DNA of 23,912 bases from a virus, in the IMG/VR virus record IMGVR_UViG_3300010151_000161, positions 1-23,912 of that record; one strand, 5' to 3'. This document shows positions 5,638 through 23,502 of the stretch, in pieces. A program made the translations under genes and the position numbers. Below the pieces are notes generated by a model. That model saw only the letters and a program-made list of their open reading frames with translations, was not told the origin of the DNA and ran no database searches. Each line of letters starts with the position of its first letter. The stretch's first letter is position 1.

Positions 5638-5646
5638 AATTCCTTA
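5638..5646 (-). promoter_or_regulatory. Ribosome binding site of the DUF4815 gene, overlapping the gp8 stop
   Basis: On the minus strand the junction reads TAAGGAATTATG. The AAGGA (5645-5641) uses the last two bases of the gp8 TAA stop and lies three bases before the ATG at 5637. It is the only clear Shine-Dalgarno-type sequence at a gene junction here, and it fixes the start of the DUF4815 gene. Spacing is short, but the match to an anti-Shine-Dalgarno core is good. Re-initiation after gp8 is likely. Confidence 0.65.
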
Positions 5647-7209
5647 GAATTGCAAAATAACTTTGATATCTTCTTTTTGATTGGTAGATCTAGTAATCGA
5701 CGGTCTGTTATCAACATAGATGATATTACCGGAATATTTTTTCACCTCTGGTTGAGATACGCCCTTTATAAAAGATTGTCCTAAGTTATATGTACGACTA
5801 TTTATTACCGTATTAATACCCGGATTAGCAGCACTACCAAAAGAAGTTTGAATTGCTAGTGTTGCACTACCACCAATAATATTAAAAGATCCCCCACTGC
5901 CTATATCAGCAGTAAATCTCTCCATTGTAAATCCATAAGTAGGAGATGTATTTTTAGTTCCATCAGTATTAAATCCACAATGGAATTTATCCTGCCAATA
6001 CTTCAACACACCCGTATTTTGATCATAAGAAACTACTCTACCAAAAGCAGTTGATCCTATACCAATTGTTTGAGTAATCTGAACATCTGGATTATATGTA
6101 ACTCCACTATAACCAGCTCCAGCTAATTTAAGTGCATAAACCGCACTTGCTTTATCGGATTCTAAGTTTGCAGTAGATGAATACGCTTTAGGACTTTCTA
6201 CAACCCCAACTCTTGCTATTTGATTTCCAGTTACAAAATCGGGATTATCTGTATCATTTTCAATTCTAGAATATAAAAGAACATTATAAGCACCCAATTC
6301 TCTATAGATATCAGCACCATGTCCTCCTTGAGGAGGAATAATAACATTAAACACAGGAGAAGTAGTTCCTGTAATTCCCTTAGCAGCAAGATCTAAAGTA
6401 CCGAAGGTATATCCAGATCCACCGTTAGAGATTGTTACATTTGAAATTTTAGCATCATTATTAGTAGTTACTGTTGCTTCTGCACCAGCTCCATCACCTT
6501 TGATGGGAACTTGAGTATAAACCTTATTAGCAGTTCCTACTCCCACACCTCTATCGCCAATAGTTACAATCTTTAATTGTCCACTACTTGAGGCATTATT
6601 TCTAACAGCAGCATCAGTGGTATTGGTTGACCAATCTTGAGGAACTGGTAGATAATTTGTAGAATCAAATTTAACAATATCACTAGGACTAATAGTATAG
6701 AGATATTTCCAAATATAACCATCACCACTCGTTCCCGCTGCCCGTGGTTCTAAATCAGTAAACGTGGGTTCATCCAGCGATGGTCTCCCAGAAGGATTAT
6801 CAGGGGAAGTTCCATTTTGAAGACAAATATAAACTCTATAATCACTATTCAGTATATAATAATTTGCATCATATAAGGTTACAGAATCAGAAGGTTTAGC
6901 TACATCAGTTGCACTAATATTATTCCGATACATGTCATATGTAATACCTGAAGTCCAACTAGTTTTTCTAACAACTTGTCTGACATCAGATTTACTAATC
7001 TTTTTCAATGCAACCATTGTATCCCAATAATTATCCTCTTGATTAAAATTATCAATAGGAGAAGGTGGGGTAGTTTCCCAATCTGCATCATAATCTGTTG
7101 GATTTGGTAACCCAACAAAGGAGTAGTAAGAGTTGGCTGTTGAAGCAACTCCTGCCACAAAATTCTTAGCATTTAATATACGAAGTTGATCAGTTATAAT
7201 TGCAGCCAT
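5644..7209 (-). CDS. 8: gp8-like baseplate wedge subunit
   Basis: This 521-residue protein matches T4 gp8 (334 residues) at several landmarks. Residues 163-170 read D-G-Y-I-W-K-Y-L, followed by a segment with N-Y-L-P-V-P, like D-G-Y-V-W-E-Y-L and its V-V-P in T4. The last 29 residues (493-521) hold S-G-N-I-I-Y-V-D-N-R-P and end V-I-L-Q-F, matching S-G-E-M-I-Y-M-E-N-R-P and the I-L-F-T-F end of T4 gp8. The N-terminus I-T-D-Q-L-R-I-L-N-A is typical of marine gp8. T4 gp8 is a wedge dimer that binds gp7 and gp10. The extra length falls mainly between about residues 215 and 480, which carry GxGY units (G-G-S-G-Y and G-A-G-Y-S) and a G-I-G-S-T motif like those of the giant upstream gene. It has its own 33-base leader with a possible late promoter. 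The TAA stop is part of the ribosome binding site of the next gene. Confidence 0.94.
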   Translation of the reverse strand: MAAIITDQLRILNAKNFVAGVASTANSYYSFVGLPNPTDYDADWETTPPSPIDNFNQEDNYWDTMVALKKISKSDVRQVVRKTSWTSGITYDMYRNNISATDVAKPSDSVTLYDANYYILNSDYRVYICLQNGTSPDNPSGRPSLDEPTFTDLEPRAAGTSGDGYIWKYLYTISPSDIVKFDSTNYLPVPQDWSTNTTDAAVRNNASSSGQLKIVTIGDRGVGVGTANKVYTQVPIKGDGAGAEATVTTNNDAKISNVTISNGGSGYTFGTLDLAAKGITGTTSPVFNVIIPPQGGHGADIYRELGAYNVLLYSRIENDTDNPDFVTGNQIARVGVVESPKAYSSTANLESDKASAVYALKLAGAGYSGVTYNPDVQITQTIGIGSTAFGRVVSYDQNTGVLKYWQDKFHCGFNTDGTKNTSPTYGFTMERFTADIGSGGSFNIIGGSATLAIQTSFGSAANPGINTVINSRTYNLGQSFIKGVSQPEVKKYSGNIIYVDNRPSITRSTNQKEDIKVILQF

Positions 7210-7242
7210 TGGACAATAGTTTTTTACTTATTTAGCAGGGAA
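7210..7242. other. 33-base intergenic gap, the longest in the window
   Basis: This gap between the giant gene and gp8 is the only one large enough for regulatory sequence. Apart from the possible late promoter box at 7229-7236 it is AT-rich and shows no inverted repeat that would act as a terminator. Confidence 0.7.
7229..7236 (-). promoter_or_regulatory. Possible T4-type late promoter box before gp8
   Basis: The 33-base gap between the giant gene and gp8 (7210-7242) contains GCTAAATA on the minus strand, matching 6 of 8 bases of the T4 late -10 octamer TATAAATA. It ends 19 bases before the gp8 ATG, leaving room for a very short leader. T4-like late genes are read from such single-box promoters by sigma gp55-type polymerase. 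The rest of the gap is AT-rich and has no Shine-Dalgarno sequence and no hairpin. The match is short and could be chance in AT-rich DNA. Confidence 0.4.
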
Positions 7243-10200
7243 TTAGCTATAGTTTTTCCATTTAAGAGGATATAGCCTTCTGACTATTCCTCCTGTTATA
7301 ATTCCAGTCACTCCATCGGTAGTGTAAGCATTATATGCTTGAGCATCAGCCCTATTTCCAAAGAGAACTTTACCCCAAGAGAAGTTTCCATAATAACCAC
7401 TATATCCAAGACCACTTATAGAATTCCAGTCCTTAACACTAACAGTTACTTTAGCAACTGCAGTTAAACCAGCACCAGTCTTAGACTCTGCTGCAGTTAC
7501 CCCAATAGAGACAGCTGCAACTTCATATACATTATCTATAAAGGTTGAACCTATTCCTATAGTGCTACTATCTTGATAGAGAGAAGTTACTCCATTACCC
7601 ACAGTTGAATTGCTGACCGTGAAGTAATATCCAGTAGCAATTCCACTAACAGTAGTAACTCCAACAATATTAGAATCTCTTAGTTCTGAATCAGGTGGAA
7701 TAAACAAATCAAATACCAATCCAGTTGATGCAACACCCACCGTAGTTGTATGAACACCCGTGATAATTCCGAAATCACCTTGATATGTTACGGTAGTTGC
7801 CTTTCCTCTTACAGGAATAGGATCCCCAATAAGAACTTGAGGTGGATTTGTAGATGTATATCCAGACCCTGGAGTAGATCCAATAGTTATAGCATTTACA
7901 ACACCGCTACTGATAGTTGCCGATGCATATGCTTGACACTCTCCAGGAGTTGTTCCAAGTCCAACAGGAGAACCAATAGTAACCGTAGGAGCAGATGCAT
8001 AACCGTATCCTCCTCCAGTTATACTAAGTGAAGTAATTGTTCCTGCAGTAGAAACATTAGCAGTTGCAGAAGCAGAAACTTTACTATCTTGAGATACAAT
8101 CTCTACTGTATATGTGTTTAAATCAGTATTATTTTCATTAATAGGATCAAAGAATGGTTTTGCATTTTGAACCCAAGCACATGTTGATGCTACACCAACA
8201 CTTTGAATTAAGAAAGCAGTAGGTTGGACAAGTGGTTCATAATGAACTCTATCTTTTCCAATTCTAATTCCATCAATAAACTTATCCTTAGTTTGCTTAC
8301 ACCATTTAATTGGTCTTACTAATGTATCATCAGTAGTAATTCCTGGTCCACCATAAGGATTAGTATTAACAGAATCAGTAGTATTGATTCCAGTAACAAC
8401 TCTTTCGTCCTGAAGCAATCCATATCCTTGATTATATGGATCTCTAGGTTCATTCATTAAGGTAAGTTCATCACCTACTTTTACAGTTTCAAGTACATCC
8501 CGGAAGACAACATCAATATCTCCAGTTCCTTTATAGTAAAGAACCTTGGTAGAATCTCCCTTCTTAGGTGCTTCACTGAATTTAAGAGTGCTTCCCCCAC
8601 TGAAGGTATATGCTTGCCCTGGGACTTGAAGAATATCATTAATGAATACTAATAGAACTGATTGAACATCAATTGATGATCCTTTAGCAGCTCTAATTGT
8701 AAGGTAAGTGCCATCAAGTTTAATTGGGAAAGACTTATTATTTCCATCACATAAATCATCAAAATGATCTAATACTTCTAAATCCCCAATAGTCCATCCT
8801 GCAAATGAATCACTAAAGGTATCTTGCAGAGTGAGCTGGAATTCCTTATAAGTCATAGAAGGATCTGTAGGAATTCCTGCGGTTCCTCCGGTATGAACTG
8901 TTAATATTTCACCTTGTCCATATCCATATCCAGTATTTTTAATTGAGAAATTAATTACACTTGATCCTTGCCCTACTACTACATCAACCTTAGCATGAGT
9001 TCCTATTCCTTGAGTTGACTTAGAACTATAAATCAAATCCAAATTCTCATAAGATTTAGGATCATCAAATTTAACTTTCAATTCTTTATCAACCTTTCCG
9101 CCTCTAGCATAGAAGTGAGTTCTGGTCGATACACCCGTCAGCACCTCAAATTTCTTATTATCAATAATATTAGTAATTGTAGATCCACTCTCAGCAGGAT
9201 CTTGACCGGAAGTAGAGAAGTTCTTCGCCCTAGGAGCAATAATTGCTGCTTGAACTTTTCCTCCACCCTGATAGAATGTAGGAACAGTAGATATTCCAAC
9301 ATTAACAGTAAAGGTAGTTGTAGTTCCTACACTATTAATAGGAACTCCCGCATATGTTGGGTCAGGCTTCCTTGGATAACTATGCTCAGTAGCATGTGCA
9401 TCTCTAGCACATGTAAAGGTAAGAGATTCTGTAGCAATGGCAACATTCGTACCTTTAATCATACTATGAACGGTACTGCCTGCTCCCGTAAGAGTTAAAA
9501 CAAGATCCCCTTCTGAGGGGTCATAAGTTGCAGCAGAAACACTATGATATACTAAAGTAGATATTCCAACATTAAGAGTAATTGTAGTAGCAGTAGTTGC
9601 CCCAATAGAAATTGAAGTATTAGAATAAGGATCACTAGGACGTGGATAACTATGAAGTGTTTGATAATTATCCATTCCACATCTAAATGTGATTCCATTA
9701 TCTAACATCCTGACAGATTCTCCTGCCTTCGACAGTCCATTTGAAGTTGCAGATACAAAGGAATGAATTCCTGTATATGCGGATGGTCTTCCTATCCCCT
9801 CCTCTAATACATTAACCTCAAATGTGTTGGTTGTAACCCCAGTAATTGGTAACCATTTATTACTTACATAATCACTAGATCTTGGATAAGTATGATTAGA
9901 TCCATAACTATCTTTTGCACAACTAAAGGTTAAAGAATTAGTTGCAAATTTAATTCTATCGCCCGTAGTAAAGGACTTCGCTGTTCCTACATAACAAGTC
10001 ATAATACCAGTATTTGGATCATACTGTGCGTCTGTTATAGTCTCAGTTGAAGATCCTGCTAAAGTATGAGATCCGATTGTGAGTACCATATCACCAGTGG
10101 ATCCATTATAAGTCGCTGTAGATGGCGTATAGAAGACGCTTCCAGAGGTTCCAACGTTAACAGTGATTGTATTATCACTAACAGCTGTAATAGAGGTGTT

Positions 10201-13200
10201 AACACCCGTTACAGGGTCTGTGGGACGAGGATAAGCATGACTTGTAATACCTGCATCCATTGAGCAAGTTAATACTATGCTACCAGTATCAAATCCAACA
10301 GTGTCACTGGTAGTGTAAGTATGTCCACTACCCACTGTTAAGACCATAGCACCAGTGGTCGGAGCATAAGTAACATTTGTAGGTACAACCGAACCAATAC
10401 CTGTTACAGTAATAGAACCGACTCCTACACTCACAAAGCTATGAGAGTAGTTGCCACCAACAATCAGGCAACTAGTTCCCGCGCTAACAAAGTTATGTTG
10501 ATAATTACCACCAGAAACTATAGCATTAGAAGATGCACGTTTAAAGGTATGTGCATATTGATCTCCGGGACCAGCAACACCCACATTAACTGTAACAGTT
10601 CCATTATGCTTTATTAATCCATCATCAGAAGCAGAAACAAAAGTATGAGCAGAAGTATTGGATGATGGAGTTACATTAACAGTAAATGTATTAGTTGTTT
10701 TATTAGATACTTCTAACCATCTGTTATTTACAGGATCAGTGGGTCTTGGATAAGAATGTTGAGTAGCATGACTATCTTTAGCACAAGTAAAGATCAATGA
10801 TTCGCCAGCAAGTCTAATCAAATCTCCATTAGAGAATCCATGACTAGTAACTGTTAAAGTTAATACTCCCGTAGTAGGGGCATATGTCGCATTACTTACC
10901 GTATAAGCGGTTCCATCATTTGTAATAGCAAGTGAATTATTATATGCATAATCAGCACCTCTAGGATAATAATGTGTAGATACACCAGCATCAATAGCAC
11001 ATGTCATTCCCAATCCAGTGAATATTACAACACTTGATTTATTAGTAGCATTGAATCCATGAGCAGTGCTGGTAGTGACCGTCATAACACCAGTACTACT
11101 TGTATAGTCCGCTGTATAGATTCCAATAGGACCAGCATAATCACATGTAAGTGCAATACCAGAAAGTTTGATATTTTCTCCTCTCTGCAATCCATGAGGA
11201 AGATGTGTTGTAACTGTAGTCAATCCAGTAATTGAACTATATCCGACATTAGAAATATCTTTTGGTCTATAGAATACCGCAGGATTAGTAATTGCAATTC
11301 CTGTGATACCACCATTTACAATCTGTCCTGTACCAACTCCGGTATAATTAGCAGCATACAAACTTGAGGTTTGAATTGCTACATTAACTGTTGGTTGAAT
11401 ATTAAGTCTATATCCACTACCGCTAGTACCAATACCAATAGATTGAATGGTTCCTGCTGTAGATACAACTGCTGTTCCTCCAGCAGCGACTAATGGTTGC
11501 AATCCGAATCCTTCAGTAGACCCGACAGAAACAATAATTCCACCTACAGGAATATTTGCATTGTTAACATCGTAAGTAACAGAACTTGCTGTTCCTGTGA
11601 AGAAGATACTAGAAATACCAGCACTTTCCTTCATGTCATAATCTTCTTCGCGAGGTTGAGTTCCCTCAGGACCTTGGAAAACACCATTGATTAAAATTAT
11701 ACCATTGCTGGTAGAGAATCCAGTAGCACTCGTTCCACCATTCTTAGTTAAAGCGAATGTCTTAGCAATTCCTGTAAATTCATTTGAAATGTCATCCAGG
11801 ATCATATTATTAGTATATGTCTCTGCAATTGTTCCTGTCTTTCCACTCCTCATAAAGGTTCTACCTTGGAAAGTAGAATGTGTAGCAATCCCTACCCAAT
11901 CTCTATCATCAGGTGCATTAGTATCTGATGAGATTGGTTCTAATCCATAAGGTGCTTCAACAAAATGAATCTTATTCTCACGAATATTATAATTACCCTC
12001 AATTATCTGAACCAAATCACCAGAACTATGGGTAGAAAGTCCAGTACCCATCCATGGTCTATCCACAAGAATAATATTAGTGCTACCAAGACCAACAGTG
12101 TTGATCTTCATAATCTCACTATTGATTTGAACTAGATCCCCACTAAAGAACGAAGTTATTCCAGTAAATTCAATTCTCTCATCTACTAGTGTTATATCTT
12201 TATCCAGAGTGGTAGTTATTGCTCCACCGACAATGGGAGATTGGAACCAATTATCAATTGCAATAAGTGCCTTAGCATTCTGATTAGTTGATGTAAAGGA
12301 GTGTGAAGTTCCAATACCAACAGCACTAATATCCAACACTACAGGATTCTGGAGAAGTGCTTTCTCAGGACTTGCTGCCAATTTAATCGTGCTGTCATTA
12401 ACCTTAACTGCATATACAGTTGGTGGTACTTTAGTAGTCGCTCCAAAACCAGGACCACTAGTAGAAGCAATACTAATTGCTTGAGTAGACCCTATACCTG
12501 CCCATGAATAAGTAAGTTCTTCACCAGTCACAAAGTAATGATCTGGAATGGTAATTGTATCCGCAGAAACACTAACCAAAGATGTATCACTTGCATCGAC
12601 ATATCTTTGGAATATTGGCAACTCATTATGAAGTAATCCAAAGGTTCTCTTAATATCCGTATGAGTTCCTCTATACTCTGCATAACTGGAAGTAATCTTA
12701 GCAGATTCAAAATCAAGAGATGAAACCATATCATCCTTCTGCAGACTTAAAACATTCTGGAATACTCTTACTTGAACCTTAATATTATGATTTGGAATAA
12801 AGGTTAAATGATTTCTACCGGAACCATCATTATTAGCACCAATAGTTCCTAATCCAGTAGTATGTAATTGAACATTACCATATTCGGTGAAAGCATTGTA
12901 ATCATCGTCATCACAAGCAACAACCTCACACATCTCATAACGCTTATTAGTAGTATCCTCTAATTGAACAACATAGTAGGCAGCATGAGAATCACCATGG
13001 TACTCAGCAATAGTGTTTATACCAGGAGTTCCTGAAGCAGCAATAGATGTGTACCAAGAATCTAAAAGACCAGTACTCATCTCTTGAGCAGTTCCTACTC
13101 CAGTTGCAGTAGATGTGCTACTTGCAATAGAAATAGACATTGCACTTACGCTATGACCTACACCAAGTGCAGAATCAGGAGTAAAGTCAATTTTTAATCT

Positions 13201-16200
13201 CGAACCCTCAATATAAGGATAATAAGTTCCTAATCCACCAACACCATAGGGACTGAGATTATTATCTGATAATTGACCGTATTCAGTCAGATCAACGGTT
13301 GATCCATCATGAATCAAATTAAGTTCATCAAATTCATAGTATGAACCATCATTTGCTCCAATCTCAACAATAACCTTAGCAGAACGATAGGTGGATGCAA
13401 TTCCCACAATAGTGGTTGCAGTGCTAGTTCCACTAGCCATTTGTTTATAGTGGGAATTAATATGAGCAACACTTCCAAGAGCAGTGCTACCTATTCCACT
13501 ATTATTACTCAAAAGATCATGTGAAATATAAGTAACATCATAATTATTGTCTTCATACTTAATAGGATAGAATTGAAGTCTTCCTTCCTCTCCACTGACA
13601 TTCCAATCAAAAGATCCTAAATCAGGATGAGTTTCTATTCTCGCATATTGATTGATAAAGCCATTGGTTCCATCATGAAGAAGTGATACAAGAAGAATCT
13701 GTCTTTCCTTAGTATATCTCTTATCTCTTACATAAGTAAAATATTTTCTACTTCTATATGCAGTTAATTTATCACTATTAATAACAGCATATCTTGTTGA
13801 TCTTGGTTTGTGATTAAATTCTCCACTAAAATCATCAATAGTAAGAACCCTATTTCCAACAGATTCTGAATAATCAGTCAATACTCTATTTTCAAATATG
13901 ATTTGATTAGAGACTAATGCTGTTCCAATTTTAACTGCTTCTTCAGATGCTAAATCGAAAGTATAAACACAATGAAGATGTCCTTCTCCTGTTAAATCTG
14001 CAACAATTTCAGCATCACTATCGAGACCAAAAACTCCACCTGTATTTTCTGCTTGAGTTTCAACAATCAGATCTGAGAATTTTAAGAATCCAGAAGTATG
14101 GTTTAGTGAACTAACAGCATCATTCCAATCTTGATAAGCAACTTTAGATTTTAAAGAGTAAGAGAAGTATTGATAATAATCGTTATCGGGCAATCTTTGA
14201 ACATTATTATTCAGAACACCAGTATCATATGTCCATCCCTTGTTAACCTGAGAATAGGGTCCTAATTTAATATAAGAATCAAAATCAACTTTACTCTTAA
14301 TACGACCCTTAGTGTTAGAAGTTTCACCCGTAAGAATAGATCCAACCAAAAGATCGCTATCAGTAGCAACTTTAAGTGTTTCTATCTTATTATTCCAACT
14401 TTCTACAATTCCACTATCATCACCAGTAGTAACAATTTCTCCATCCTTAAAGTCATTGATTTTTAATTTTATATCAAAAATTGGGAATTGCTTTTTAGGA
14501 ATTATTCTACCAAAAGAAGTAATAGGATCAAAATAACCTGGATATTGGTCACCCTCCAAAACAGAGCTCATATCATAAACTATAGAACCTGTGTTACCAC
14601 CTAAAGCAGAATTTACTTCAGTAACAGGGAAAAGCTTATAGTTATAAGAAGAAGAATTATATCCTAACGATGTACTTCCAACACCAACACTGGTATTCTC
14701 AATAAGAACGTCATCTCCTACAGCAACAGGGAATAAATCACTAAATCCAGTATTAATCCCTACAGTTACTAGTTTAGTGGTGCTATTATAGGTAATGGTA
14801 TTAATTCCAATTCCATTGGAATTGTGAATAGGTATAATAGTTGGGAGAATATTATTCATCCCATAAGTATTCTGTACTATCCTTACCTGAGTAGATCCAA
14901 CATTATATTCTAAAATAACATCATCAATTACCTCACCAGTATATCCATCCAAAACAACTAAACCAGGATCAGTCAAGTAATTCTTACCACCAGATGAAAT
15001 ACCAATACTCTTGAACGATGTAAGAGGTTCAATTGTAAGAATTTCTGGAAGGTTGAGAGAAGGCTTCAAAGTAAAGTCAGTAGGATAATCAAATCCAATA
15101 TTGTCAATCGTATCCTTTTGAATTTTACCAATAGAAGTACTTTGAACTTCTAAAATTGCTCCTTTTCCATACGCAGAGGAAATTGTATTAATACCTGGAT
15201 TAAATTCATACTTTGTACCACCATTAACAACTTCAATTTTAGCAATAGCACCATAAGCAGTTGAAGACCTAGTAGTGTAGTAAGAATTTGCAGTGGCTGA
15301 TGTATAAGAATCTGCTTCAGGATATTTTCTTATATTATACTTAAAGGTGGTAGTTCCTAATCCAACTACTTTCTGAGTTCCTGCATACTGACTATCAACC
15401 AGATTAACCTGATTATTATTAATTACATCAGTATCAACAACAATCTCCTTTTTAATATCCGCAATATAATCTTCATTAATAGGTTCTAGATTATAATAAA
15501 GATTTTCAGGAATATCATCATTTAAGAATAACTTAACAGTGGCATCACTTTCTAATCCAATCTCACCAGTCTTAACAACTTCAAACTTATTAGTAACTCC
15601 GGTAGATTCAAACTTATATTTGAATTCAGGATCCTTATAGAAATTAAAGGTAAATGCTGAATAGGAAGTTACTCCAACCTTTGATGATAAGGTAGAATCA
15701 GATAAATCAAATGTAACAATCTTATTTCTATAAACATCAATCTGAGGATTAATCTCACATAGAGTTCCAATTGTAGCACTAGTAATATCAATATAATTGG
15801 GAATATTTAAATTTAAATCATATCTAGTTTTACATAACCTAATCTTATCTTTTGTATAATAAAGAACATAGTAAAGTTCTTCATTAGTTAATCCACCAGA
15901 AGGAGAAGAAGCTTTATAAAGAATCTTATCACCAGTCTTCAATCCATGATTAGTAATAGTAATAGTATCAGCAGCAGTGTCTATATCCGATGCAGCCCAA
16001 GTGGTAGAGTTATATACGGCTCTTCTATTATCATCATCATATTTTACTGTTATAGTTTGGGTATCCTTTCCAAGATTTGTAACTTGAATTTCATCACCCA
16101 AGGATAATCCATGTGTAGAAGCAGTAGAAACAGTAACAATATTCTGTCCAATTTCACCACTTATAGCAGTTCTCTTTGTAGTAAAACTATGATAGTTTCC

Positions 16201-19200
16201 TATACCAAAATTCTGGAAATAAGGTAACCGTTGGGTAGTAGTTGAACCAACCCCAACAAAAGTTCCTGTAGTTCCTAAACCTACTCTAACAGTCGCAACT
16301 CCAATAAAATCTCTTGCAACATTAGCAATGTATAAGTCTTGACCTTCTGGCAATTCAAATGTAGTTCCAGATGTAATACCAGTTATAGGTTGCCAACATT
16401 GAATTCCAGTTCCACCATGATTTGAATAAGTAACCTTCTCACCAGTCTTCAATCCATGATTAGGAATATAAATCTGACTATAAGGAACAAATACTTGTGT
16501 TACTCCCAAACCAGGCATGGAGAATACTGCAGTAGATCCAACACCTGCAATTGCTGATGTTCCCACACCTACCGATTCATTGGGATTAAAATAAATCTCT
16601 TTATTTGCGCTATAACTATAATCTGTTTTAAATCCAGTATTAATAGTAAATTTACGTGGATTTTCTCTAAGAATAGTAGATGAGCTATACGCAAATCCTA
16701 CAGTACCATCAACTGCTCTTCTAACTCTAATTCTTCCACCAACTTTGTCTATATTAAGAACTTTAACTTTCTCAGTATTACCTATTCCAAGAATATCATT
16801 CTCCCTAATAAATGGGAAATCAAGGAATCCAGTAGTGTAGAAATAAGTGGTTAATCCTGTTACATTAGTACTTCCAATACCTAAAGTAGTTACAAAATTA
16901 TCTGTCCTAATACCTATAGTGTAATCATCTTCTAAATGCGCAAAATAAGTGCTTAAACCAGAAACAGTGATTAATTCGCCATTCTCTAATCCATGAGGAG
17001 CAGTGGTAAATCCAACCACACTTCCTCGACCATCTATAGTAGCAAATTCAACACTAGAATATGAAGTAGTTGCAATACTTACTGAAGAAATACCAGGACT
17101 GTAAAGACTCTTAACTCTAGCAGAAGCATTATTTCCACCTGTTAGAGAATTGTCAAATAAGACTCTATCCCCAACATTATAATTATTACCCCCAGTTAAG
17201 ATGCCAATAGAATCAACCTGGCCAGTAGAAGCACTGTCAATATTTACTGTTTGATTTCTAACATTATCAGGATCAAAAACAAATTCATAATCACTGTTAG
17301 AAGATTTAAATTGATAACCTAAAGTGTTTCTAAACCATTCTGAATCATTTAAATTAAATTCTTCTTGATTTAAATCATTACTCCAATCTGATGTAATGGG
17401 TTCTGAGTAAAAACTAGTTCCAATAACATAAGGAAACTCTGGTCTATAATATCCATCAAAAGATCCAGAAGTATCCGTTTGCCCACCTTCAATAGTAGTA
17501 AAGTATGCATAAACTCCATTAGGATATTCGGGTGTTATTCCAAATCTACCATTATGTTCGTCCAGATCTCCACTATTCTTAAATCCATAATCTTCATTGA
17601 AAAATCCTTGTGGGAAAATAGTAAGAGATGGTCTATTAGAGTGGGAAATCAATTCATACCCAGTTTTCAGTGCTCTAGCAACTCCACCCTCAGGAGTAGT
17701 GTATCCATAAGGACCATAAATGGGATTTCCATCATAAGCCCATCCTAGAAGTGGTGAATGCCAAGAAGAAGTTTGTTCCTTCTGTTGCGCCATCCTTAAA
17801 TCACCAACACCATATTGTATTACTCCACCATCATTTCTTACAAATACAGATTTCCTAAGTTCCCTAGGAGCATACATGTGGCAATATTGTAATCCAAAAT
17901 CTTCTCTCTCCGAACGAGCAATAATTCCATCATCTGCACTTATAGTATCTAATAATTTACGGAATAGATTAACTGTCCACTTCTGAAGATGTCCTTTAAG
18001 TTCACAAGTAGATCCAGCAGGTTTTATAGTAATAGTAGTGGTATCATCGTATCCAATGCCGCCACTTATTACCTTTACTTCTTTTAGTTGTCCACCTTCA
18101 ACAACAGGAGTAAGTGTGGCATAATTTCCACTTCCATTAATTACAAGATCAGGAGGAGCATTATATCCTGTTCCGTTTCGTGTAACTAATACTTCTTGAA
18201 TTTTCCCATTACTAACTACGACCATCACTTCAGCATTTAATCCTTGACCATTAACTTCACCTCCACTTCTAAAGAAGAATTCAGGTTGTCTATCCCAATT
18301 AACAATAGTATCTGACCCGTAAGAACTTCCAGCGTTAGTTAAATAAACAGACTCAATCTCTCCTCTAACAATGGGTTGAACTTGTGCAGAGAAATCTTGA
18401 TTAGATAATGTAGAAACTCCAGTATTTCCTGTGATAACAACAGAAATTGCAGGATAATTAAAAGAATGTATCCCACTACCAATCGAACTTAACTGAACAT
18501 ACTGTTCACTATCAAGATACTGTGTTTTAGAGGTAGTTCCTAATCCAACAGGAGCAAGTTTAAAGGAATTAGTATTTTCCTTTTTAACCAAATATTCTAA
18601 GGAAGTATTAAGACCATCAATAACAGTTCCTGTTGTAGCATAAGTAACAGTCTCGCCTGTCTCATATCCGTGAGAATCTATATTAATAACATTAAGTGAG
18701 GTACTGACACCAGTAGTTTGAGTACTTCTCTTTTTATTTGCATATCCTTCACCACTATTATTAACAACAATATCGGAAATTATATTTTTCTTTGAAGTAG
18801 AATTAATTTCTTGTCGTCCGACTCCATAACCACTAATGAAAACAGTGTTTATTCCACTTATAGCATCCTTTTGTTTGGGATAAATCTTAACTGTTTGAGC
18901 ATCTACTACACCGACATGATAAAGTGATCCTGTAGTTAAACCAGTTAAAGCAGTTTGCTTACCGGGATTATATACAACTTCTTCATAATCTCTAAACTTA
19001 TGATAAGTGGAAAATCCAATTAAACTAGTAGTAGCACTTCCTGCTTGAATAAAGACATTACCACTAGATCCTTGGTTAGTTGCATCAAGAGAAACACTAT
19101 GAGATACAGATCTCATATTGACTGCTGCCGATGCATCCTTACCATTTCCTCCAGTAATAGTAATAAATGGATCACTTACATAATCAAATCCACCATCAAT

Positions 19201-21600
19201 AATTTCAATTCTTTGAAAAGATCCTTTTACTGCACATATACCAGTTGCACCACTACCAACAGAATCTATAATATCTAAACTAGGTGGAGTTACTACATCA
19301 TATCCAGATCCAGGAGATTCTACTTCAATACTTTCAATACCTCCATAGAATACAGTATCTGATGATTTGTAATTTAAAACCTCAACTCCATTAATTAAAA
19401 TACCTGTTCTTCCAGGTTCAGTTATATAATTACCGCTCTTATTTTGAGGATCTTTTACTTCTCTGAAAAGATTTTGTGCTTCTATCTCTTGTCTAGCAAA
19501 ATCATAATCTTCAATAACATTAGAAGTTACAATTCCAGAAATAGAGATATAATTGCCACTATTAATATTAGATCTACTTTTTGCAAAACTTAATTTAGAC
19601 GCATCAATTCTTTTAACAAAATAAAGTCCTTCTTGAAGTTCTGGGAACTTACTCATTGAAGTTTGAATCCCAGCAAAACCATCACTATCAACAATAGTCT
19701 CTTCTTTCACATATGGTTGATAATAGATTCTATCACCAGTATAAAAACCATGATCTAATGGAGCATTTGGATCATTAGCAAGTACATCAATCTCAGTTCC
19801 ACTATACTCACCACTTAAAGTAATTTTTCTACTATAGGGGTTAATATAGGTATCCCGATAAAAAGGAAGGGATGGGGATCCAACTAAAATTTGATTATTA
19901 AAGTTAGTGTAGGTATTTTGAATATTTGCGTTATTTCTATTCAGATAAGGATACCTGGTAGAATCTACTTTTGTTAATTTTCTTTGAACTTCATAAGTGT
20001 AATTAGATAATAATTCACCCTGTCCTCTAATAGTAAAGATCTTAGATCCAGATACCGAAACAATATCACAATCTCTGTTTACTCCATCACTTCTCTTAAC
20101 AAGTCCTCTATCTCCAGCTTTAAAATTATGAATATCATAAGATGTTACTTCATAAGTATAATTTGAACTATTAGTTAAACTAAAATCACTAAGATTATAG
20201 GTATTAGCAACATTACCAATCCAATTCTCTCTTCTAGTAGTAGCAGAAGAAATTCCTAAACTCTTAATCCTACCAGTATCATTCTTAGAATATAAATGAG
20301 TTTCTGGAAGTACAACCTCTTCCAAGACAGATCCAATTCTAACTTTAACTACTTCATCGGTAGTTATTCCAGCATAACCATATGCATTAGCATCTAATCT
20401 AATTTCTGCTGCTGTTCCAATTCCAGAAACAATAGTAGTACTTGCTATACCAAAAAACTGAGTAATAGATTTGGAAGAGTAAGATGCTATTCCAGATATT
20501 CCATTATCATATTTAAAAGCAATCTCTCCAGATTGTGCAAACCCAACAGTAGAATCAACATCAATAGTGGTAGATCCGGAAGAAACAGGAGTTATTACTA
20601 ATGTTTTTGGATGAACGGAAAAATCTCCATAGAGAGTGCCCTGCAGAGTTACATCTTTATTATAATCAGCATCAAAACTTAACTTATAGTATTCTGTATT
20701 ACCTATAGCAATTTTTTCTACATCTGTAACAGATCCATACGCTTCGGTAATGCCATATTTTTCATTAGCATCTTGATATAAGGTATTATTTAAAAGTTTT
20801 GTAGGATCTCCCTGAATGCCTTCAACAACTAAATCTCTAGTTCTTCTCCACCCAGCATCCGATGGTCTGAATAAAAAATCTCTTGGTTTAATAACCGAAA
20901 CTTCTTCACCAAATAATGCACCAAATAAAATTTCAAATGATGGATCAGCACCCTTTGAAGAATAAAAATCTTTAGATTGTTTAATAAAAAGATTCTCATT
21001 TAAATCAGATGTTAAACTTCTCTCAGCAAATCCTGGAATAAATTGTTGCTTTAACTTATTGAGAAATTCAGTGAAAAATAATCCACTTAAATTATAAACA
21101 AGAGGACCTATAGCATATCCCTCATACGTCTCCACAGGGTGCTGTGCTGCCACAGAAGAAGAGAATACGAGTTCTTCTGGGGAATTTACCTTAGAGTATT
21201 GAGTAACGCCACTGAACCCCCTTACACACCCCTCAAAGGTCGTATCTGTCTTACTAGTGTAGGTAATTATTTCATTATCAATCTTAAGGATTCCATACCT
21301 ATCAGGGAATCCTCTTGTACCTGTTAGAATATTACCGTCTTTATCAGTACTTGTACTTACCGTAATAGTAGTATCACTATATGATAAGTCATCACTTAAT
21401 ATACATGTATTAACATTCTTAAAAATTTCATCAAGTTTAATATATTTGTCAAGATTTTGGACGAGATCAGTAGCTCCACTAGGGTATTCCTGTGAAATAT
21501 AATATTGTTTTAAAAAGTCTACAAGAAGTGGATTCTCCTCTGCAATAAAATCTGGTAGTTGATTCTCAACTATCGATTGAATTTTAACTCTAGTTTCCAT
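7243..21600 (-). CDS. Giant multi-repeat baseplate protein in the gene 7 position (expanded gp7-like)
   Basis: One uninterrupted frame encodes 4,785 residues (about 0.5 MDa by residue count), more than four times T4 gp7 (about 1,030). It lies between gp6 and gp8, as gene 7 does in T4. Residues 212-234 read F-Y-S-S-K-G-x3-S-F-x-I-L-F-x2-L-F-x-E-E-V, very like a T4 gp7 segment recalled from memory. Order of regions: an N-terminal F-L-K-Q-Y-Y helix near residue 28; a module ending G-C-V-R-G-F near 125; the gp7-like segment; GxGY units at about 767-1184; a YHYH-like domain at about 1235-1405; HGxxxG[DE] units throughout the first 3,590 residues; a Cys/His/YPR array at about 3500-4100; two GxGY units near 4532 and 4581; and a C-terminus ending K-N-Y-S. 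No signal peptide, membrane segment or enzyme motif is seen. The start follows the gp6 stop by 3 bases, without a strong Shine-Dalgarno sequence. The structural role is strongly supported; gp7 orthology is likely but not proven. Confidence 0.85.
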   Translation of the reverse strand: METRVKIQSIVENQLPDFIAEENPLLVDFLKQYYISQEYPSGATDLVQNLDKYIKLDEIFKNVNTCILSDDLSYSDTTITVSTSTDKDGNILTGTRGFPDRYGILKIDNEIITYTSKTDTTFEGCVRGFSGVTQYSKVNSPEELVFSSSVAAQHPVETYEGYAIGPLVYNLSGLFFTEFLNKLKQQFIPGFAERSLTSDLNENLFIKQSKDFYSSKGADPSFEILFGALFGEEVSVIKPRDFLFRPSDAGWRRTRDLVVEGIQGDPTKLLNNTLYQDANEKYGITEAYGSVTDVEKIAIGNTEYYKLSFDADYNKDVTLQGTLYGDFSVHPKTLVITPVSSGSTTIDVDSTVGFAQSGEIAFKYDNGISGIASYSSKSITQFFGIASTTIVSGIGTAAEIRLDANAYGYAGITTDEVVKVRIGSVLEEVVLPETHLYSKNDTGRIKSLGISSATTRRENWIGNVANTYNLSDFSLTNSSNYTYEVTSYDIHNFKAGDRGLVKRSDGVNRDCDIVSVSGSKIFTIRGQGELLSNYTYEVQRKLTKVDSTRYPYLNRNNANIQNTYTNFNNQILVGSPSLPFYRDTYINPYSRKITLSGEYSGTEIDVLANDPNAPLDHGFYTGDRIYYQPYVKEETIVDSDGFAGIQTSMSKFPELQEGLYFVKRIDASKLSFAKSRSNINSGNYISISGIVTSNVIEDYDFARQEIEAQNLFREVKDPQNKSGNYITEPGRTGILINGVEVLNYKSSDTVFYGGIESIEVESPGSGYDVVTPPSLDIIDSVGSGATGICAVKGSFQRIEIIDGGFDYVSDPFITITGGNGKDASAAVNMRSVSHSVSLDATNQGSSGNVFIQAGSATTSLIGFSTYHKFRDYEEVVYNPGKQTALTGLTTGSLYHVGVVDAQTVKIYPKQKDAISGINTVFISGYGVGRQEINSTSKKNIISDIVVNNSGEGYANKKRSTQTTGVSTSLNVINIDSHGYETGETVTYATTGTVIDGLNTSLEYLVKKENTNSFKLAPVGLGTTSKTQYLDSEQYVQLSSIGSGIHSFNYPAISVVITGNTGVSTLSNQDFSAQVQPIVRGEIESVYLTNAGSSYGSDTIVNWDRQPEFFFRSGGEVNGQGLNAEVMVVVSNGKIQEVLVTRNGTGYNAPPDLVINGSGNYATLTPVVEGGQLKEVKVISGGIGYDDTTTITIKPAGSTCELKGHLQKWTVNLFRKLLDTISADDGIIARSEREDFGLQYCHMYAPRELRKSVFVRNDGGVIQYGVGDLRMAQQKEQTSSWHSPLLGWAYDGNPIYGPYGYTTPEGGVARALKTGYELISHSNRPSLTIFPQGFFNEDYGFKNSGDLDEHNGRFGITPEYPNGVYAYFTTIEGGQTDTSGSFDGYYRPEFPYVIGTSFYSEPITSDWSNDLNQEEFNLNDSEWFRNTLGYQFKSSNSDYEFVFDPDNVRNQTVNIDSASTGQVDSIGILTGGNNYNVGDRVLFDNSLTGGNNASARVKSLYSPGISSVSIATTSYSSVEFATIDGRGSVVGFTTAPHGLENGELITVSGLSTYFAHLEDDYTIGIRTDNFVTTLGIGSTNVTGLTTYFYTTGFLDFPFIRENDILGIGNTEKVKVLNIDKVGGRIRVRRAVDGTVGFAYSSSTILRENPRKFTINTGFKTDYSYSANKEIYFNPNESVGVGTSAIAGVGSTAVFSMPGLGVTQVFVPYSQIYIPNHGLKTGEKVTYSNHGGTGIQCWQPITGITSGTTFELPEGQDLYIANVARDFIGVATVRVGLGTTGTFVGVGSTTTQRLPYFQNFGIGNYHSFTTKRTAISGEIGQNIVTVSTASTHGLSLGDEIQVTNLGKDTQTITVKYDDDNRRAVYNSTTWAASDIDTAADTITITNHGLKTGDKILYKASSPSGGLTNEELYYVLYYTKDKIRLCKTRYDLNLNIPNYIDITSATIGTLCEINPQIDVYRNKIVTFDLSDSTLSSKVGVTSYSAFTFNFYKDPEFKYKFESTGVTNKFEVVKTGEIGLESDATVKLFLNDDIPENLYYNLEPINEDYIADIKKEIVVDTDVINNNQVNLVDSQYAGTQKVVGLGTTTFKYNIRKYPEADSYTSATANSYYTTRSSTAYGAIAKIEVVNGGTKYEFNPGINTISSAYGKGAILEVQSTSIGKIQKDTIDNIGFDYPTDFTLKPSLNLPEILTIEPLTSFKSIGISSGGKNYLTDPGLVVLDGYTGEVIDDVILEYNVGSTQVRIVQNTYGMNNILPTIIPIHNSNGIGINTITYNSTTKLVTVGINTGFSDLFPVAVGDDVLIENTSVGVGSTSLGYNSSSYNYKLFPVTEVNSALGGNTGSIVYDMSSVLEGDQYPGYFDPITSFGRIIPKKQFPIFDIKLKINDFKDGEIVTTGDDSGIVESWNNKIETLKVATDSDLLVGSILTGETSNTKGRIKSKVDFDSYIKLGPYSQVNKGWTYDTGVLNNNVQRLPDNDYYQYFSYSLKSKVAYQDWNDAVSSLNHTSGFLKFSDLIVETQAENTGGVFGLDSDAEIVADLTGEGHLHCVYTFDLASEEAVKIGTALVSNQIIFENRVLTDYSESVGNRVLTIDDFSGEFNHKPRSTRYAVINSDKLTAYRSRKYFTYVRDKRYTKERQILLVSLLHDGTNGFINQYARIETHPDLGSFDWNVSGEEGRLQFYPIKYEDNNYDVTYISHDLLSNNSGIGSTALGSVAHINSHYKQMASGTSTATTIVGIASTYRSAKVIVEIGANDGSYYEFDELNLIHDGSTVDLTEYGQLSDNNLSPYGVGGLGTYYPYIEGSRLKIDFTPDSALGVGHSVSAMSISIASSTSTATGVGTAQEMSTGLLDSWYTSIAASGTPGINTIAEYHGDSHAAYYVVQLEDTTNKRYEMCEVVACDDDDYNAFTEYGNVQLHTTGLGTIGANNDGSGRNHLTFIPNHNIKVQVRVFQNVLSLQKDDMVSSLDFESAKITSSYAEYRGTHTDIKRTFGLLHNELPIFQRYVDASDTSLVSVSADTITIPDHYFVTGEELTYSWAGIGSTQAISIASTSGPGFGATTKVPPTVYAVKVNDSTIKLAASPEKALLQNPVVLDISAVGIGTSHSFTSTNQNAKALIAIDNWFQSPIVGGAITTTLDKDITLVDERIEFTGITSFFSGDLVQINSEIMKINTVGLGSTNIILVDRPWMGTGLSTHSSGDLVQIIEGNYNIRENKIHFVEAPYGLEPISSDTNAPDDRDWVGIATHSTFQGRTFMRSGKTGTIAETYTNNMILDDISNEFTGIAKTFALTKNGGTSATGFSTSNGIILINGVFQGPEGTQPREEDYDMKESAGISSIFFTGTASSVTYDVNNANIPVGGIIVSVGSTEGFGLQPLVAAGGTAVVSTAGTIQSIGIGTSGSGYRLNIQPTVNVAIQTSSLYAANYTGVGTGQIVNGGITGIAITNPAVFYRPKDISNVGYSSITGLTTVTTHLPHGLQRGENIKLSGIALTCDYAGPIGIYTADYTSSTGVMTVTTSTAHGFNATNKSSVVIFTGLGMTCAIDAGVSTHYYPRGADYAYNNSLAITNDGTAYTVSNATYAPTTGVLTLTVTSHGFSNGDLIRLAGESLIFTCAKDSHATQHSYPRPTDPVNNRWLEVSNKTTNTFTVNVTPSSNTSAHTFVSASDDGLIKHNGTVTVNVGVAGPGDQYAHTFKRASSNAIVSGGNYQHNFVSAGTSCLIVGGNYSHSFVSVGVGSITVTGIGSVVPTNVTYAPTTGAMVLTVGSGHTYTTSDTVGFDTGSIVLTCSMDAGITSHAYPRPTDPVTGVNTSITAVSDNTITVNVGTSGSVFYTPSTATYNGSTGDMVLTIGSHTLAGSSTETITDAQYDPNTGIMTCYVGTAKSFTTGDRIKFATNSLTFSCAKDSYGSNHTYPRSSDYVSNKWLPITGVTTNTFEVNVLEEGIGRPSAYTGIHSFVSATSNGLSKAGESVRMLDNGITFRCGMDNYQTLHSYPRPSDPYSNTSISIGATTATTITLNVGISTLVYHSVSAATYDPSEGDLVLTLTGAGSTVHSMIKGTNVAIATESLTFTCARDAHATEHSYPRKPDPTYAGVPINSVGTTTTFTVNVGISTVPTFYQGGGKVQAAIIAPRAKNFSTSGQDPAESGSTITNIIDNKKFEVLTGVSTRTHFYARGGKVDKELKVKFDDPKSYENLDLIYSSKSTQGIGTHAKVDVVVGQGSSVINFSIKNTGYGYGQGEILTVHTGGTAGIPTDPSMTYKEFQLTLQDTFSDSFAGWTIGDLEVLDHFDDLCDGNNKSFPIKLDGTYLTIRAAKGSSIDVQSVLLVFINDILQVPGQAYTFSGGSTLKFSEAPKKGDSTKVLYYKGTGDIDVVFRDVLETVKVGDELTLMNEPRDPYNQGYGLLQDERVVTGINTTDSVNTNPYGGPGITTDDTLVRPIKWCKQTKDKFIDGIRIGKDRVHYEPLVQPTAFLIQSVGVASTCAWVQNAKPFFDPINENNTDLNTYTVEIVSQDSKVSASATANVSTAGTITSLSITGGGYGYASAPTVTIGSPVGLGTTPGECQAYASATISSGVVNAITIGSTPGSGYTSTNPPQVLIGDPIPVRGKATTVTYQGDFGIITGVHTTTVGVASTGLVFDLFIPPDSELRDSNIVGVTTVSGIATGYYFTVSNSTVGNGVTSLYQDSSTIGIGSTFIDNVYEVAAVSIGVTAAESKTGAGLTAVAKVTVSVKDWNSISGLGYSGYYGNFSWGKVLFGNRADAQAYNAYTTDGVTGIITGGIVRRLYPLKWKNYS
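9301..11103 (-). repeat. Six-copy protein repeat with invariant C-x2-D-x5-H-x-Y-P-R-x2-D
   Basis: Residues about 3500-4100 of the giant protein hold six units, each with a strand-rich lead-in (T-G-x-[LM]-x-L-T-V type), then the motif, then an N-T-F-T-V-N-V-type strand. The motif histidines are at residues 3543, 3615, 3788, 3903, 3983 and 4073, and each motif cysteine is nine residues earlier. Unit spacing varies (72 to 173 residues), mainly because of an insertion between copies two and three. A degenerate unit keeping only L-T-C-D precedes copy one. The DNA copies have diverged, so the repeat shows mainly at protein level. Confidence 0.9.
10396..10557 (-). repeat. Three tandem 18-residue (54-base) units, motif Y-x-H-x-F-[VK]
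   Basis: Residues 3682-3735 of the giant protein form three consecutive 18-residue units starting Y-A-H-T-F, Y-Q-H-N-F and Y-S-H-S-F, with their tyrosines at 3682, 3700 and 3718. The first two end in G-G-N. They lie in the insertion between copies two and three of the C-x2-D-x5-H array. Related single H-x-F-V-S units occur near residue 3652 and inside array copy four. The exact period suggests a regular beta arrangement, which is inference. Confidence 0.85.
15929..15953 (-). repeat. 25-base direct repeat, copy A (HGL module)
   Basis: These 25 bases are identical to 16439-16463, 510 bases away in the same frame and direction. Both encode the core N-H-G-L-K-T-G of an HGxxxG[DE] unit, with the histidine here at residue 1885. 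Other copies of the unit are related only at protein level, so this pair looks like a recent duplication or gene conversion. Confidence 0.85.
16439..16463 (-). repeat. 25-base direct repeat, copy B (HGL module)
   Basis: This copy is identical to 15929-15953 and encodes the same N-H-G-L-K-T-G core, with the histidine at residue 1715. The two copies are 170 residues apart, a distance a multiple of three, so recombination between them would delete or add a module without breaking the frame. Confidence 0.85.
17386..17898 (-). other. YHYH-like domain inside the giant protein
   Basis: Residues about 1235-1405 of the giant protein resemble the YHYH domain. The landmarks are H-S-P-L-L-G-W-A-Y-D-G-N-P-I-Y-G-P-Y-G-Y at 1281-1300, L-D-E-H-N-G-R-F-G at 1346-1354 and G-V-Y-A-Y-F-T-T at 1362-1369. 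In family members as I recall them, the second block is usually L-D-x-C-N-G-R and the third gives the Y-H-Y-H signature. Here the Cys is replaced by H1349 and the signature reads Y-A-Y-F. The function of YHYH domains is not established. Within a baseplate protein it may be a surface or binding module, which is inference. Confidence 0.75.
20899..20967 (-). other. gp7-like conserved segment inside the giant protein
   Basis: These 23 codons are residues 212-234 of the giant protein. The pattern F-Y-S-[ST]-K-G-x3-S-[FY]-x2-L-F-x2-L-[FY]-x-E-E-V is shared with T4 gp7 as I recall its sequence. In T4 the segment lies in the C-terminal third; here it is near the N-terminus. Upstream residues about 24-33 (L-L-V-D-F-L-K-Q-Y-Y) may match the helix that precedes it in T4. 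The comparison is from memory, not from an alignment run. Confidence 0.7.
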
Positions 21601-21603
21601 ATC

Positions 21604-23502
21604 TTATCTTACAAAGACTCCGTTTGAATAACTTGACGATACTTGAAGGGTACTTCCTGAAATTTCTGCTCCAGATGCAATTTCATCAGGCCACATATTA
21701 ATACTTACCTTACTAGTATCTAGTTGCAAATAAAGATCCTGTAATCCAATAACATCATTCGAATATGGAATAGCTTCAATCTCAATAAGTGGAGTTCCTC
21801 TATTAATAGTGGTTCCTATAATATTAACGGGATTTAATTTAATTTCACCTTTTTTATAGTCAATAGATCCAATATTTCTTCTAATAATTTGTGGTTGAGT
21901 GGGAGAATCCAATCTAAAGAAATTAAGAGTTCCCATATGGCAACTAATAGGTATATCCGCTAGATATACCGTTCCTGCGATTCCACTAACCGTAAATCCG
22001 GAAGATTTGATATTGTATCCAGATTGATGGGCAATATGGAATCTATTACCATAACATATTTCATATTCAGCAAAACTATTTAATATTGCTCTCAAATCTC
22101 TTCTCATAACCACTGTAGTGATGTTAGAAGTGACAGATTGATTACTTTGGTCAATTATATTCAAAAATTGACTATATTTGAATCTTGCACCAAATTTATT
22201 CAATTCTGTGGAATCAGCATATGTGTTAATACTTGAAAAAATGGCATTTTTCGCCGAATTAGCAGAAGGTGCTAAATTTGGGTTATAATAGACATTTGAA
22301 GCGGTTTCAATGTACAAATATTTCAAATCCACTATTTCTGGAACAATTCCAGCAACAGTATATTTTTGTAACTCCCTTTTTATGTTATCTTTGATCAAAT
22401 TTGACAAATAGCGGTCATTATAAGGTTTTATGCTAACATAAACTTTTCCAAATCGAGGTGGAGTAAGAGTTTCTCCGCCATAAGCAGAAACTGACTCCGT
22501 TTCGGGATAAATTGTCGGAATTAGTGCTTCATAGTCAGATGAAGTGACTGCTCTGTTCCGAGAAGCATAAACTTGGGTTCCATATTTCTTAATTGACTCT
22601 ACACTTTCAATACTTTCGCCAGAATGTGAAGAATCAGTAACTGAAATTAGTGAAATTCCGGTTTCTACTGCTCTATCCGAATCATCTTGCAAAATTCCAC
22701 TAAATTGGAAGGAAGAAAGATTATTTGCAGCACTACCATTACAAACAACGTAATTGGCGGCAATAAATTCGGGTTCTTCAAGTTTTTTACCAAAAATACC
22801 GTCTCCAAAAATCAATTCATACTCTTCATTTTCAACTTCTTGAATAAAGAACACTCTAGAAGTGGGAGTGAGGTCAAAAAGACTATCAGCAAACGTATAT
22901 GTGTTTGCTGCACTTGAAGTAGCATTAGCACTAACAGTTACTGTAAGTAAACTAGTGTCAATACCAGCATTATCAAGAATAAATCGTTGATTGGGTGTAA
23001 AAGAGCTAACTGTAAAGGTTTGAGTAACTCTTGTACCTTCATATATTGTAATATCAACAAATTCTGCAATATTGTTAATAACAGGAACAGTAATATCTGA
23101 TGGAATAGAAAAAGAATAACTTTGCTCTCCAAAAGGATCAGTTGTAGCAACCACTCCTGCCTTTAAAATGAGTGATGCTGGTGCATTGGTAAAATTACTA
23201 GTGTCAACAAAGAAAGATACCTTTGCTCTTGCTGATTTTCTTGATCTAGGAACATATCCAATATTACGAGCAAGAGAAACAACATTTTCTCTTAATGTTG
23301 CACTATCAATGAATACTTCATTCGTTACCATGTTGGTATTGTATGAAGTAATGTAAGTGTTATAGGCTAACGTATCAACAATGACTGAAAGGTTTGATCC
23401 TTCAAAGTCATAATCGGTAAAATTAGAGTTTGCTCTCAGATAATCCTTAATTGAGGTTTTTATCTGGTCAAAATCTAGATCTGCGTAATTTACTAATGCC
23501 AT
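21604..23502 (-). CDS. 6: gp6-like baseplate wedge subunit (baseplate J-like)
   Basis: This 632-residue protein is close to T4 gp6 in length (about 660). The N-terminus has the typical marine gp6 pattern: D-L-D-F-D-Q-I-K near residue 8, then F-E-G-S-N-L-S-V-I-V-D-T-L-A-Y-N-T-Y from about residue 33, then a segment that begins S-A-T-L-R-E-N-V-V-S. A second conserved block lies at about residues 312-345 (A-V-T-S-S-D-Y-E-A-L-I-P followed by Y-G-G-E), as in baseplate J-like proteins. In T4, gp6 dimers form the inner ring that holds the six wedges together and contacts gp25, gp53 and gp7. The start ATG overlaps the gp25 stop by one base and has no clear Shine-Dalgarno sequence, so it probably relies on ribosomes finishing gp25. 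Three bases separate its TAA from the next ATG. No frameshift or truncation is seen. Confidence 0.93.
   Translation of the reverse strand: MALVNYADLDFDQIKTSIKDYLRANSNFTDYDFEGSNLSVIVDTLAYNTYITSYNTNMVTNEVFIDSATLRENVVSLARNIGYVPRSRKSARAKVSFFVDTSNFTNAPASLILKAGVVATTDPFGEQSYSFSIPSDITVPVINNIAEFVDITIYEGTRVTQTFTVSSFTPNQRFILDNAGIDTSLLTVTVSANATSSAANTYTFADSLFDLTPTSRVFFIQEVENEEYELIFGDGIFGKKLEEPEFIAANYVVCNGSAANNLSSFQFSGILQDDSDRAVETGISLISVTDSSHSGESIESVESIKKYGTQVYASRNRAVTSSDYEALIPTIYPETESVSAYGGETLTPPRFGKVYVSIKPYNDRYLSNLIKDNIKRELQKYTVAGIVPEIVDLKYLYIETASNVYYNPNLAPSANSAKNAIFSSINTYADSTELNKFGARFKYSQFLNIIDQSNQSVTSNITTVVMRRDLRAILNSFAEYEICYGNRFHIAHQSGYNIKSSGFTVSGIAGTVYLADIPISCHMGTLNFFRLDSPTQPQIIRRNIGSIDYKKGEIKLNPVNIIGTTINRGTPLIEIEAIPYSNDVIGLQDLYLQLDTSKVSINMWPDEIASGAEISGSTLQVSSSYSNGVFVR

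Follow-up and report, generated by a model that had tools for sequence, protein, structure and literature searches.

The closest described counterparts of the protein analysed here are the giant gp7 proteins of the T4-like cyanophages S-SM2, Bellamy, P-TIM68, P-SSM2, S-B43 and S-SCSM1, which belong to the PHROGs family phrog_2885, and gp7 of phage T4 itself (PDB 5IV5, 5HX2). Small proteins of simple contractile systems with core helices at the N-terminus, among them gp17 of the Vibrio phage XM1, TssG and other gp7-like wedge proteins, are believed to be counterparts of the gp7 core; XM1 gp17 has only 242 residues in contrast to the 4,785 residues found here. In XM1, this gp7 counterpart binds the tail spikes via an internal loop and a C-terminal tail (PMC10457771), and the gp7-like part of contractile systems has been described as a hotspot both for re-engineering and for the binding of fibres (PMC8894135). 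In the literature we found no structure of the baseplate of a T4-like cyanophage or of a phage with a giant gp7; the structure of the cyanophage A-1(L) is that of a simpler myophage. In addition, it has been stated that cyano- and pelagimyophages lack T4 gp7 and have VrlC as its substitute (PMC7029224).

The stretch of DNA that we analysed (the window) comprises the whole of the IMG/VR contig IMGVR_UViG_3300010151_000161 (23,912 bases) and carries five genes, all on the minus strand (Table 1). The gene order gp25, gp6, giant frame, gp8 is the order of the cyanophages, and the order of gp6, gp7 and gp8 is also found in T4. Since gp8 shares 66 percent identity with gp8 of Synechococcus phage S-SM2, the DNA comes from a marine T4-like phage of cyanophage kind. 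The initial annotation had described a single unbroken frame between gp6 and gp8, and this is confirmed: the frame starts with ATG, runs over 4,785 codons without internal stop and fills 60 percent of the window. A chance or mis-assembled frame was rejected, since independent contigs encode full-length relatives, with frames of 4,785, 4,570, 4,574 and 4,575 aa which can be aligned end to end. From the computed mass of the chain, six copies, a number which is itself inferred, would add up to 3.09 MDa, in agreement with the earlier figure of about 3 MDa, and the excess over T4 gp7 would be 2.4 MDa.

Table 1. Genes of the window and parts of the giant gp7-family protein (positions refer to the window, residues to the giant protein).
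Feature	Residues	Position	Strand	Remarks
gp25, sheath-initiating wedge protein		23502-23903	-	profile matches
gp6, baseplate wedge protein		21604-23502	-	profile matches; predicted partner of the gp7 core
Giant gp7-family baseplate wedge protein		7243-21600	-	4,785 aa, 515 kDa; phrog_2885 match with E 0
N-terminal helices of the gp7 core	1-62	21415-21600	-	predicted helices 8-14, 17-22, 24-38, 44-60; low-confidence model
Small beta domain in the core helices	65-170	21091-21408	-	missing from the shortest members
Core segment A	197-245	20866-21012	-	DFYSSKG..SFEILFGALFGEEV; homologous to T4 gp7 ~727-758
Insert between the core segments	246-2467	14200-20865	-	2,222 aa; 106 aa in T4 gp7
YHYH-type domain	1274-1371	17488-17781	-	PF14240, 85.2 bits, cut-off 25
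Endosialidase-type beta-barrel-like module	1707-1748	16357-16482	-	below Pfam cut-off; one of several HG..G(D/E) modules
Core segment B	2468-2520	14041-14199	-	YYQ.FSYS..W..H..GF; homologous to T4 gp7 865-888
Three tandem ~90-residue beta-sandwich domains	2612-2955	12736-13767	-	confident model; best PDB fold match T4 gp9
Repeat array	~3451-4080	9361-11250	-	about six repeats of ~90-115 aa (...HSYPRP.DP...)
C-terminal region	4175-4785	7246-9078	-	phrog_2885 positions 3551-4176
gp8, baseplate wedge protein		5644-7209	-	66 percent identity to S-SM2 gp8
DUF4815/VrlC-type structural protein		1-5637	-	truncated by the contig end

When the protein is compared to PHROGs, the family phrog_2885 ('baseplate wedge subunit', profile length 4,179) is matched with E 0 and 3663 bits over residues 2-3547, and the C-terminal part is also matched, up to the end of the profile. 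With the giant gp7 proteins of the cyanophages named above the protein has the gene order, the two core segments A and B, the YHYH domain, the beta-sandwiches and the C-terminal region in common, and the alignment is near full-length with ~30-45 percent identity. In contrast to S-SM2, Bellamy, S-B43 and S-SCSM1, the window protein carries an extra repeat array of ~630 residues. A tblastn search with the first 800 residues retrieved 468 phage records, almost all of them marine T4-like cyanophages and many already labelled 'gp7, baseplate wedge initiator'. In IMG/VR at least 590 stretches code for relatives of the N-terminal 397 residues, which illustrates that marine T4-like phages are very common, and the giant gp7 is among their largest virion proteins.

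The lengths of the proteins in this slot, taken from annotated coordinates, are 4,156 aa in S-SM2, 4,067 in Bellamy, 5,195 in P-SSM2, 4,307 in P-TIM68, 4,337 in S-B43, 4,120 in S-SCSM1, 3,884 in S-CAM9, 3,515 in S-RSM4, 3,007 in S-SSM7, 6,064 in ACG-2014a, 6,376 in Syn33 and 7,312 in P-SSM4. Shorter members are found in S-H34 (1,942), S-CREM2 (1,937), S-CRM01 (1,454), Melnitz (896), BUCT-ZZ01 (607) and Variovorax V45v66 (~486), and T4 gp7 has 1,032 residues. With 4,785 residues the window protein lies in the upper middle of the family range, and a giant gp7 is normal in marine T4-like cyanophages. The window protein adds to a family which has been annotated in cyanophage genomes for years and is no new kind of system.

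Two separate segments connect the protein to T4 gp7. For segment A a profile was built from the N-terminal 320 residues of 13 family members, without any T4-type coliphage sequence. Among 177,635 PDB sequences this profile matched only T4-type gp7 (E 3e-7 and 1.2e-6), and the profile-profile comparison with T4 gp7 gave a probability of 94.8 percent and E 5e-8, compared to a probability of only 0.1 percent for T4 gp10 as control. The Pfam model Baseplate_wedge matches residues 199-241, below its cut-off. The profile of segment B, which in its fuller form has the pattern YYQ.FSYS....W...V....H..GF, found T4-type gp7 as its top two matches in the PDB, with E values (0.06 and 0.26) that are statistically weak alone; hhalign of this segment against T4 gp7 gave E 2e-5, and gp7 was best by far among the T4 proteins and 300 shuffles. 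All 33 tabulated members, T4 among them, have both segments, with A preceding B. Plain Pfam and single-sequence searches gave no gp7 match over threshold, and phmmer with the whole protein against the PDB and NCBIfam returned nothing useful.

A comparison of the first 400 residues with gp7 had been proposed earlier; it succeeded with the sequence profile and was less clear on the level of the fold, as residues 1-397 were modelled only poorly by AlphaFold2 (mean pLDDT 60). The top two Foldseek matches of this model are the T4 baseplate chains 5iv5_BJ and 5hx2_A, which have the size of gp7 (E 0.01 and 0.06), matches too weak to be relied on alone. Judged from the homology of both core segments, the giant protein is gp7 of a T4-like baseplate. 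Thus the gp7-like segment that the initial annotation had noticed near residue 212 is real, and the proposal that the protein takes the place of gp7 is right concerning the slot in a T4-like baseplate but falls short in that the protein itself, with its segments A and B, is gp7.

T4 gp7 and the window protein have the two segments in the same order and occupy the same slot between gp6 and gp8. Nevertheless, the lengths before the core, between the segments and after them are completely different, with ~640, 106 and 144 residues in T4 gp7 and 0, 2,222 and 2,265 residues in the window protein. The T4 N-terminal half (~1-640) has no counterpart in the window protein or in any non-T4 member examined, as had been supposed before for the window protein, and we judge this half to be a feature of the T4 side which does not define the core family. 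The N-terminal core helices are conserved even in the members with 486 and 607 aa. The short gp7 proteins of Methylophilales phage Melnitz, Synechococcus phage BUCT-ZZ01 and Variovorax phage V45v66 have the same N-terminal core and segment B with 208-399 residues between; in other tabulated members this spacing is 1,095 and 1,646 residues and reaches 2,817 residues in P-SSM4. The tail beyond segment B ranges from 15-41 residues up to 2,662 residues. As both distances lengthen across the members, the core of gp7 is split, and both the loop and the tail have grown. An extension of about 4,500 residues following the gp7 segment had been described initially; there is indeed an expansion, but segment B had been missed, and because of this second gp7 segment the expansion is really an insert within the core plus a C-terminal tail. 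The small beta domain within the core helices is a third, small insertion, and P-SSM4, ACG-2014a and Syn33 have a far longer stretch instead, with segment A starting at ~680.

Both the insert and the tail consist of beta-rich modules. The earlier description as repeated modules holds for the motif YPR..D, which is found six times (~3,500-4,110), for the HG..G(D/E) motif with nine occurrences (0.1 expected in shuffles) and for the three beta-sandwiches, whereas most of the length is without recognisable repeat. GYxxP-type modules were observed five times, compared to 0.1 expected in shuffles. The model of the three beta-sandwiches has a pLDDT of 80-95 in most blocks. For the YHYH domain a role as metal-dependent hydrolase has been predicted (PMC7824862). 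In the window protein and in nearly all giant gp7 relatives the eponymous residues are replaced by YAYF; because of this degenerate motif the hydrolase role is doubtful here, and an active enzyme, having lost the residues of the predicted metal site, is unlikely.

The repeat array matches the tail-fibre family phrog_5342 (E 3e-81) and short tail fibres. It is absent from S-SM2, Bellamy, S-B43, S-SCSM1 and nine metagenomic relatives, and ~215 residues shorter in three relatives which are otherwise mostly 60-95 percent identical. The idea that the array is private to the clade of the window was dropped, as P-SSM2, P-SSM4 and S-SSM7 also have an array, each with its own version. On the basis of these sequence comparisons, the array is the most lineage-specific part of the giant gp7; beyond it, conservation resumes in the C-terminal region. 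Since the array is patchy, variable in copy number and related to tail fibres, it suggests contact with something variable, and it provides a named variable piece for the question of host or fibre contact. In S-SSM7 the giant gp7 is encoded by two open reading frames (2562-11585 and 12651-21001 of the retrieved stretch), both annotated as gp7, with a small structural gene between them. The split is at about residue 3170 of the window protein, and the second reading frame matches residues 3177-4488. Thus the outer tail may be a separate chain, and a covalent join would not be needed.

Our main reading, which we consider very probable, is that a marine T4-like myovirus of cyanophage type (Kyanoviridae-like) uses this protein as its gp7, with a split core and with the expansion as a peripheral platform for holding fibres or contacting the host. 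The core segments (residues 1-250 and ~2468-2520) would pair with two copies of gp6 to a (gp6)2-gp7 wedge, in analogy to T4, the T6SS and XM1 (PMC3004832, PMC6300606, PMC10457771). The loop and the tail would exit from this core as a string of beta-rich modules located along the baseplate periphery, and these modules would most probably either build a peripheral platform that holds the tail fibres or themselves contact the host surface. Such a platform would do part of the job of the T4 gp7 N-terminal half and of the T4 peripheral proteins. The homology of both core segments to gp7, the modular make-up of the expansion, the occurrence of relatives in virions and the relationship of the repeat array to tail-fibre proteins are shown by the data, and from there we infer six copies, a peripheral position and a role in fibre holding or receptor contact. 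The platform is suggested by the binding of spikes via loop and tail in XM1, by the fibre-binding hotspot of contractile systems and by the separable tail of S-SSM7. In addition, the two growth sites, internal and C-terminal, fit the picture of loop and tail in XM1, with a putative equivalence of the sites.

The main rival concerning the role of the expansion accepts the identity as gp7 but regards the expansion purely as structural skeleton, that is, as a thick wall or second layer that stiffens the wedge, while separate fibres encoded elsewhere contact the host. We give this possibility a real though minority chance. In its favour, the insert is conserved in length (~2,175-2,245 aa) and in sequence in most marine members, with an identity that is fairly even throughout, and the YHYH domain without its eponymous residues also suggests a structural use; moreover, T4-like cyanophages encode separate tail fibres as well (S-CREM2 ORF85 and ORF126). 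The repeat array in the tail, patchy, of variable copy number and akin to tail fibres, argues against a mere wall.

The initial annotation had gone further and raised the possibility that parts built into the giant protein stand in for T4 gp9 to gp12, which in our view is unlikely. Pfam models detect neither GP11 nor the gp9/gp10 N-terminal domain anywhere in the genomes of three phages with a giant gp7 (S-SM2, Bellamy and P-SSM2), and in the same three genomes the gp8 model still detects gp8; the short-gp7 phages Melnitz and S-CRM01 have separate open reading frames between gp7 and gp8. The three beta-sandwiches have T4 gp9, the socket of the long tail fibre, as best PDB fold match (Foldseek E 1.4e-4, probability 1.00), with a TM-score of only 0.28, and their fold matches in a viral library include cyanophage tail fibres. 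Among the T4 proteins and shuffles gp9 ranks first for this region (E 0.03, a weak value), but sequence homology to gp9 was found neither in the PDB profile search nor by hhalign (probability 1.3 percent), and within the giant protein there is no sign of gp10, gp11 or gp12. Since P-TIM68 and S-SCSM1 combine a giant gp7 with a separate open reading frame between gp7 and gp8 that has a gp9/gp10-type N-terminal domain, the replacement is unsupported beyond one fold-level hint. A bolder variant, which we regard as quite improbable, takes the gp7 core as a docking frame into which a gp9-like socket is threaded, with the sandwich trio after segment B mimicking the gp9 trimer and the fibre-type arrays beyond it being swapped or lengthened as the host contact changes. 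If true, wedge, socket and adhesin would be united in one polypeptide.

It is scarcely credible, finally, that the protein is not gp7 and that VrlC (DUF4815) stands in the place of a missing gp7. The published statement (PMC7029224) says so, and the similarity to gp7 stays below threshold in plain Pfam and single-sequence searches; on the contrary, two collinear gp7 segments are present in the giant protein, and VrlC matches a solved DUF4815 protein, PDB 9euf, with E 1.8e-35. VrlC as substitute of gp7 was therefore rejected. The reading with a split core locates the gp7 part of the wedge exactly, and the two gp7 segments contradict and correct the published view that these phages lack gp7 and use VrlC instead. 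The entry matched by the VrlC-type neighbour is named 'ORF65', and thus a structure exists for part of the DUF4815/VrlC family.

Virion mass spectrometry, which had been proposed as a check, is at hand for relatives. In purified virions of S-CREM2 the family member gp122 (1,937 aa) was detected with 91 unique peptides, compared to 113 for gp6 and 55 for gp8 (PMC10665884). For S-SCSM1, 45 virion proteins were found by mass spectrometry (PMC9602691), and in its GenBank record the member with 4,120 aa bears the mark 'virion protein'. We read this mark as detection in virions, because in the S-CREM2 table the same mark is carried by exactly the detected genes of the cluster.

A stretch from another metagenome, IMGVR_UViG_3300037634_004756, is 100 percent identical to the window over the compared stretches and ends within the giant gene. 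The open reading frames between gp7 and gp8 are located at 30951-33395 (P-TIM68), 15585-16364 (S-SCSM1) and 5828-6712 (Melnitz) of the retrieved stretches, and by eye the one of Melnitz resembles those of P-TIM68 and S-SCSM1.
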